Source: Candidatus Nitrosopumilus sp.
GTDB taxonomy: Archaea; Thermoproteota; Nitrososphaeria; Nitrososphaerales; Nitrosopumilaceae
Assembly (NCBI GenBank): GCA_021268355.1
Contig: JAJETY010000010.1
Span: forward strand, 1-41,106
Reading direction: 5' to 3'
DNA: 41,106 nt
The translations under genes were made by a program, and so were the position numbers. A model generated the notes under the pieces. It had not been told where the DNA came from. It searched no databases and worked only from the letters and a program-made list of their open reading frames with translations. This document shows positions 29,719 to 29,977 of this stretch, piece by piece (position 1 is the stretch's first letter; every line of letters starts with the position of its first letter).

Positions 29719-29826
29719 TTACTTGTTTACAACTTCTGGTTCATGAAGTAACTCGTGAAAGGTCTTTTCAGCTAAACCATTTGCTGTCTCGATGAAACCT
29801 CTTGTACAATATTCACATTGAATCAT
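29719..29826 (-). CDS. 35-aa CxxC...HxxxH micro-protein (C2H2 zinc-finger-like)
   Basis: ATG 29826 opens a 35-residue protein starting MIQCEYCTRGF and ending in TFHELLHEPEVVNK. Two cysteines (4 and 7) and two histidines (24 and 28) are placed like a classical C2H2 finger, with a slightly long loop. The start codon directly abuts an 11-bp-arm palindrome, and AT-rich TATTAAT lies about 27 bp upstream, so the gene looks leaderless and controlled. The encoded zinc finger could be a DNA-binding regulator or a partner protein. It is too small for routine gene callers. Confidence 0.65.
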   Translation of the reverse strand: MIQCEYCTRGFIETANGLAEKTFHELLHEPEVVNK

Positions 29827-29851
29827 ATAGTACGGTATGGTACCGTACTAT
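29827..29851. promoter_or_regulatory. 25-bp palindrome, probable operator of the zinc-finger micro-protein
   Basis: Arms ATAGTACGGTA and TACCGTACTAT are perfect reverse complements around a TGG spacer. The site lies between the likely TATA element (about 29850-29857, minus strand) and the ATG at 29826, where a bound protein would block initiation. The 3-nt spacer and position favour a dimeric repressor site over a terminator. The regulator is unknown. Confidence 0.6.
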
Positions 29852-29977
29852 TAATAAGAAGGTAATGACAACGTAACCAATTATGCAGTCAGATACCCCA
29901 GGTCATATCTCTACATCTCATTCAGTTGACCTAATCATCACTCTGCATTTTTACTATAGTTGATTGGCATAAAGAGA

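Follow-up and report, generated by a model that had tools for sequence, protein, structure and literature searches.

The locus described here raises the question of whether a 35-codon gene and the palindrome at its start codon form a self-contained unit, or whether the palindrome is a binding site that serves other genes as well. The window analysed (the whole stretch of 41,106 nt, from a Candidatus Nitrosopumilus sp. contig) carries the gene, here named zf35, and the features listed in Table 1. A preliminary description made from the sequence had read gene and palindrome as a candidate for a small, tightly repressed, zinc-responsive and possibly self-controlled unit.

Table 1. Features of the zf35 locus (positions in the window) and operator targets (contig and positions in the window's own genome).
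Feature	Position	Strand	Remarks
zf35, micro zinc-finger gene, 35 aa	29719..29826	minus	ORF, conservation; Cys4-Cys7...His24-His28
Palindrome, 25 bp	29827..29851		Operator core TACNGTA-N3-TACNGTA at 29831-29847
TATA box of zf35, TATTAATA	29849..29856	minus	-30 to -23 from ATG; 3-bp overlap with palindrome edge
Second conserved dyad, GGTTAC-N6-ATTACC (gene strand)	29861..29878		Upstream of zf35 TATA box, -52 to -35
Coiled-coil protein gene, 509 aa	28128..29657	minus	Directly downstream of zf35
Probable C/D-box guide RNA	29883..29948	minus	Upstream neighbour of zf35, outside the regulon claim; C box 29935-29941, D box 29889-29892
Operator target A: zf35, then coiled-coil gene	C58:29831
Operator target B: radA	C44:5088-5104
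Operator target C: ~62-aa zinc protein with CxxC and CxxH	C15:62689-62705
Operator target D: 114-aa winged-helix protein	C7:664-680
Operator target E: 128-aa protein			Some genomes

The zf35 ORF translates into MIQCEYCTRGFIETANGLAEKTFHELLHEPEVVNK. A search of 61 genomes identified it with 79–100% identity in 31 genomes of the genus (the window's own included), and a profile run against 400 genomes from the order detected the protein in about 203 genomes of the family Nitrosopumilaceae; outside the family, the profile matched in four genomes only, with E-values around 0.001–0.007. Disruption of the frame in close strains was looked for, and the frame was intact in 30 genomes of the genus, with 27 protein rows free of indels. 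In the 30-genome alignment the variable columns numbered 10, 9 and 29 at codon positions one, two and three, respectively; third positions are thus about three times more variable than the others, indicating a protein under selection. Residues M1, C4, C7, F11, G17, H24 and H28 were invariant in 36 diverse rows. The gene is therefore real and, as had been supposed, easy to overlook in relatives on account of its size.

Zf35 has no family of its own in Pfam or NCBIfam. A zf-C2H2 match was obtained for only one of 27 members (E 0.14), below the Pfam gathering cut-off. Matches to Fer2_2 and XdhC (E 0.002–0.03), also below cut-off, reflected a merely local resemblance over IQCxYCTxGF, and this kinship was discarded. 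The metal-free AlphaFold2 (AF2) model (pLDDT 92.4) predicts a beta-beta-alpha arrangement, with short strands at residues 2–3 and 10–11 and a helix at 15–26; Foldseek and VIA-align comparisons of this very small model (only 35 residues) returned no useful match. The Cys2-His2 set and the predicted fold are those of a C2H2 zinc finger (Pfam zf-C2H2), but the classical spacing is C-x2-4-C-x12-H-x3-5-H while that of zf35 is CxxC-x16-HxxxH, the x16 between Cys7 and His24 being kept throughout the aligned family. On the model, zf35 would thus be a C2H2-like finger with an unusually long x16 loop. The invariant Cys/His set suggests metal binding at most, and the proposed zinc response found no support. 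Very small one-domain zinc proteins are also known from haloarchaea, namely the zinc-finger micro-proteins (PMC6562870, PMC11241148) and Brz of Halobacterium salinarum (PMC2253796), some of which are reported to have links with regulation or stress adaptation. The Haloferax micro-proteins are described there as having two C(P)XCG motifs, unlike the single CxxC-x16-HxxxH of the 35-aa zf35.

The palindrome reads ATAGTACGGTA-TGG-TACCGTACTAT, two 11-nt arms, 100% complementary, around a 3-nt spacer. The perfect arms had been described correctly, but the single base said to separate the palindrome from the start codon does not exist: it abuts the ATG with no base between. It is the only repeat in the window with 11-nt arms and a 3-nt spacer; when spacers of 0–8 nt are pooled, two repeats are observed against 0.3 expected in a first-order Markov sequence. 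The palindrome by itself is therefore only mildly unusual, and it is its conservation that secures it. Information content in 121 distinct regions upstream of zf35 is about 1.1–1.8 bits per position for the TATA box and most of the arms (1.4–1.75 bits for TATA positions -29 to -23), 0.6–1.2 bits for the spacer and 0.75 bits for the right half-site's middle base. A lack of arm conservation in relatives had been put forward as a refuting condition, and it was not observed; the placement between TATA box and start codon was borne out in these regions. The pattern TAGTACNGTANNNTACNGTACTA matched 87 stretches in 84,980 species genomes, 86 of which were the zf35 locus, with the ATG one base past the 23-mer (named genomes include Nitrosopumilus, Nitrosarchaeum and other Thaumarchaeota); the remaining one was a chance match in a Saprospiraceae record. 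No copy was found in viral contigs, and the window's own genome has a single full palindrome. Gene, palindrome, TATA box and spacing are thus conserved throughout the Nitrosopumilaceae, and the distance from TATA box to ATG fits the geometry of a leaderless start. In the zf35 promoters of a few species (L004, L036 and L107) the three-base spacer is inverted, reading TGG for CCA on the gene strand, and strand switching at the palindrome might be the origin of this inversion.

The coiled-coil gene adjoins zf35 in 27 of 30 loci spanning the family, and probably shares its operon and promoter. It was not found in genera g33 and g35, where zf35 persists, or in one truncated g27 locus. Upstream of the TATA box lies a second dyad (general form GGTTAC-N6-RTNACC), centred about 30 bp, or three helical turns, from the operator centre; its outer triplets GGT/ACC carry 1.4–1.7 bits in the 121 regions, and it is repeated in tandem in L145 and L039. 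As a regulon motif it was rejected: genome matches to GGTTAY-N6-RTAACC were fewer than those to the reversed control. It may thus be peculiar to the zf35 promoter, which would imply a further regulator there. Beyond it, a strongly conserved element with C box GTGATGA, D' CTGA, a C'-like ATGTAGA, D box CTGA and a closing stem TGCAG/CTGCA is probably a C/D-box guide RNA; its putative D guide, ACCTGGGGTAT, is near-invariant across much of the family, and several C/D-box Rfam families match the element at E 0.2–3, below the gathering score.

Within the palindrome, the operator core consists of two TACNGTA heptamers repeated at 10 bp, one helical turn apart. Each heptamer is itself a 7-bp palindrome, so the dyad does not fix the number of bound subunits, and the 25-bp palindrome is better read as tandem heptamers with symmetric flanks. 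A 20-base pattern with fixed middle bases had one copy in the window's own genome, a result that would have spoken for control by zf35 alone; once the middle base was left free, the sites of a regulon appeared. In 14 genomes from seven genera the core TACNGTA-N3-TACNGTA occurs in 55 exact copies, against four for the reversed pattern, with 3–5 copies per genome. All but one of the 55 lie at the starts of the five target genes of Table 1 (one, L200, was assigned to radA by eye). The sole exact core elsewhere (G237:C1:120849-120865, L228) has an uncharacterised protein of about 157 aa as its nearest frame. Variants with a 4-nt spacer occur at the ∼62-aa zinc-protein gene in G062 and at the winged-helix gene in G123 and G194. 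The identity of radA, the archaeal RecA/Rad51, is secure (Pfam Rad51, 3.6e-87; NCBIfam RadA, 3.7e-151).

The radA site recurs in most genera of the family. Elsewhere in the order, 18 genomes from other families lacked the core, and the radA upstream regions that could be read in six loci of such families had no such site. In g27 and g31, zf35 and radA retain about one half-site each. Genome G268 of g31 has two radA copies (L302, L309), each preceded by identical overlapping half-sites TACCGTACAGTA; the winged-helix gene was not found in this genome. A small family-wide regulon with a shared TACNGTA operator almost certainly exists in the Nitrosopumilaceae. In it, zf35, with the coiled-coil gene, is a regulated member rather than the operator's only target, so the unit is not self-contained as first described. 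Neither the operator nor the zf35 protein sequence was found in the literature searched, nor was any thaumarchaeal radA regulon.

The position of the core differs among the targets. In the zf35, radA and winged-helix promoters it occupies the gap from TATA box to ATG, stopping 4 bases short of the ATG in zf35 and reaching it in the other two. A protein sitting there would obstruct RNA polymerase at the start site, as a repressor acting on a leaderless gene should. The winged-helix promoter often has a third, imperfect heptamer (e.g. TAAGGTA) 10 bp further upstream. At the ∼62-aa zinc-protein gene, whose divergent neighbour we take to be anthranilate-synthase-like, the core immediately precedes TTTATA, over the BRE position. 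Judged from these positions, the protein bound at the operator is likely a repressor, with the caution that activator operators can look alike and that the site of the ∼62-aa gene is upstream of its TATA box.

An operator shared among several genes calls for a common trans-acting regulator, which makes self-control by zf35 a minority hypothesis. The candidate we favour is the 114-aa protein. Residues 39–114 of its model match RosR, MarR, PadR and Sso10a structures (Z 11–12.5), the best being 6ez1 (VIA-align; Z 12.5 over 79 residues, 2.2 Å, 14% identity); residues 41–110 have a mean pLDDT of 87–94. The model thus points to a RosR/PadR/MarR-like winged-helix fold. Curated models score it below their cut-offs (the best, Pfam DUF7347, with 17.3 against 27.6 bits; HTH_45, 13.9 against 25.5). 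Fold apart, it differs from Halobacterium RosR and other archaeal PadR/MarR-like regulators in its 14% identity, its gene context and its low-confidence N-terminus. Of 26 family genomes tested, 21 have a single copy of the gene; it was not found in g27 or g31, and outside the family it had one weak match. Absence of the gene and decay of the operator to about a half-site coincide in two lineages only. The operator stands on its own promoter wherever that promoter is readable, with a 4-nt spacer in some genera. That this protein binds the operator as its regulator is, on these circumstantial grounds, somewhat the better bet.

The same observations have to be weighed against other readings of the site. 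Were transcription to begin upstream of the palindrome, its arms would form a stable stem, and the palindrome might function as a 5′-terminal hairpin of the mRNA. However, the middle bases of the half-sites are unpaired in 32 of the 121 distinct zf35 regions, a lack of covariation expected of a DNA site rather than of an RNA stem. At the ∼62-aa gene they are usually G:G (7 of 12). The latter gene has its element on the upstream side of the TATA box; at zf35, a leaderless start is to be expected from the distance to the TATA box. The unpaired bases and the upstream-of-TATA site leave the hairpin next to no credence, and it was discarded. Self-repression, in which a zf35 dimer would bind its own palindrome and sense zinc, is very unlikely. 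In its favour, the full 23-bp form of the site, the strongest one, goes one-to-one with zf35, and zf35 has a predicted finger fold, but the core also stands on four other promoters, and g27 and g31 retain zf35 with only about one half-site of the dyad left. A single zinc finger recognises some 3–4 bp, and that of zf35 would be too small for two 7-bp elements without strong oligomerisation.

A further alternative keeps the regulon and changes the binder: another factor, perhaps an activator, would act at the operator and the winged-helix gene would be merely a target. Autoregulation by the winged-helix protein is argued from position alone, and in some genomes the operator is flanked by an HTH/B12-like protein (Pfam B12-binding_2, 24.6 bits against a cut-off of 23); an unlinked protein is also conceivable. 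In L192 (1974-1996), L206 and L237 the operator lies between the 128-aa gene and a divergent gene for this 297-aa protein, which combines an ArsR-like HTH with a B12-binding-like region and is possibly a cobalamin-sensing regulator. On the other hand, the 128-aa gene of one genus (G061, L257) keeps an operator with a single mismatch although this neighbour is missing, and the winged-helix gene has the operator at every readable promoter. This alternative is unlikely. The reading we consider probable is that of a small undescribed regulon around radA, with the winged-helix protein as its likeliest repressor and zf35 as one target.

In such a regulon, the winged-helix protein would bind the tandem TACNGTA operators and would autoregulate through the one on its own promoter. 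On the operators of zf35, radA and its own gene it would block RNA polymerase at the start site; over the BRE of the ∼62-aa gene it would block TFB. Its release would let RadA, the two small zinc proteins and the coiled-coil protein rise together, a joint rise that would resemble a response to DNA damage or replication stress. No peptidase domain was found in the winged-helix protein by Pfam and NCBIfam scans, so release would need another step, in which the small zinc proteins might be partners. A response of the regulon to DNA damage is a tentative suggestion from the gene content, and a cell-cycle regulon is another possible role. The fullest version, a LexA-independent SOS-like regulon in which the winged-helix autorepressor controls radA, the coiled-coil protein and the two micro zinc proteins, with zf35 as the sensor or antirepressor by which it is released when DNA is damaged or replication is under stress, would be rather speculative.

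The arrangement resembles the bacterial SOS system (LexA/RecA) in that recombinase and an autoregulated DNA-binding protein both have an operator over or next to the start sites of their genes, and in that the regulon centres on recombination. It differs in that the candidate lacks the LexA S24 peptidase domain, the operator is another one and the basal machinery is archaeal. The SOS layout of a common operator on recombinase and regulator genes is present if the winged-helix protein is, as we infer, the regulator. The Deinococcus RDR regulon is also comparable. It has a LexA-independent conserved motif on the promoters of radiation-induced genes, the repressor DdrO and a zinc protein, the protease IrrE, with a part in the response (PMC5552922, PMC7907104). 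The organism and the machinery are different, however, and no DdrO- or IrrE-like domain was found in the scanned regulon members.

A clear LexA homologue is lacking in archaea, and in Sulfolobus the repair genes were not clearly induced by UV; an SOS-type response that does without LexA has been left open (PMC2246294). Whether archaea coordinate recombination in an SOS-like manner without LexA is thus an old question. The operator on radA and on a likely repressor gene suggests an undescribed SOS-like control circuit. A defined operator, a candidate repressor and a set of targets, conserved throughout an abundant family of ammonia oxidisers, open this question to direct testing, and they give a gene of only 35 aa, near the lower limit of gene calling, its first functional context.
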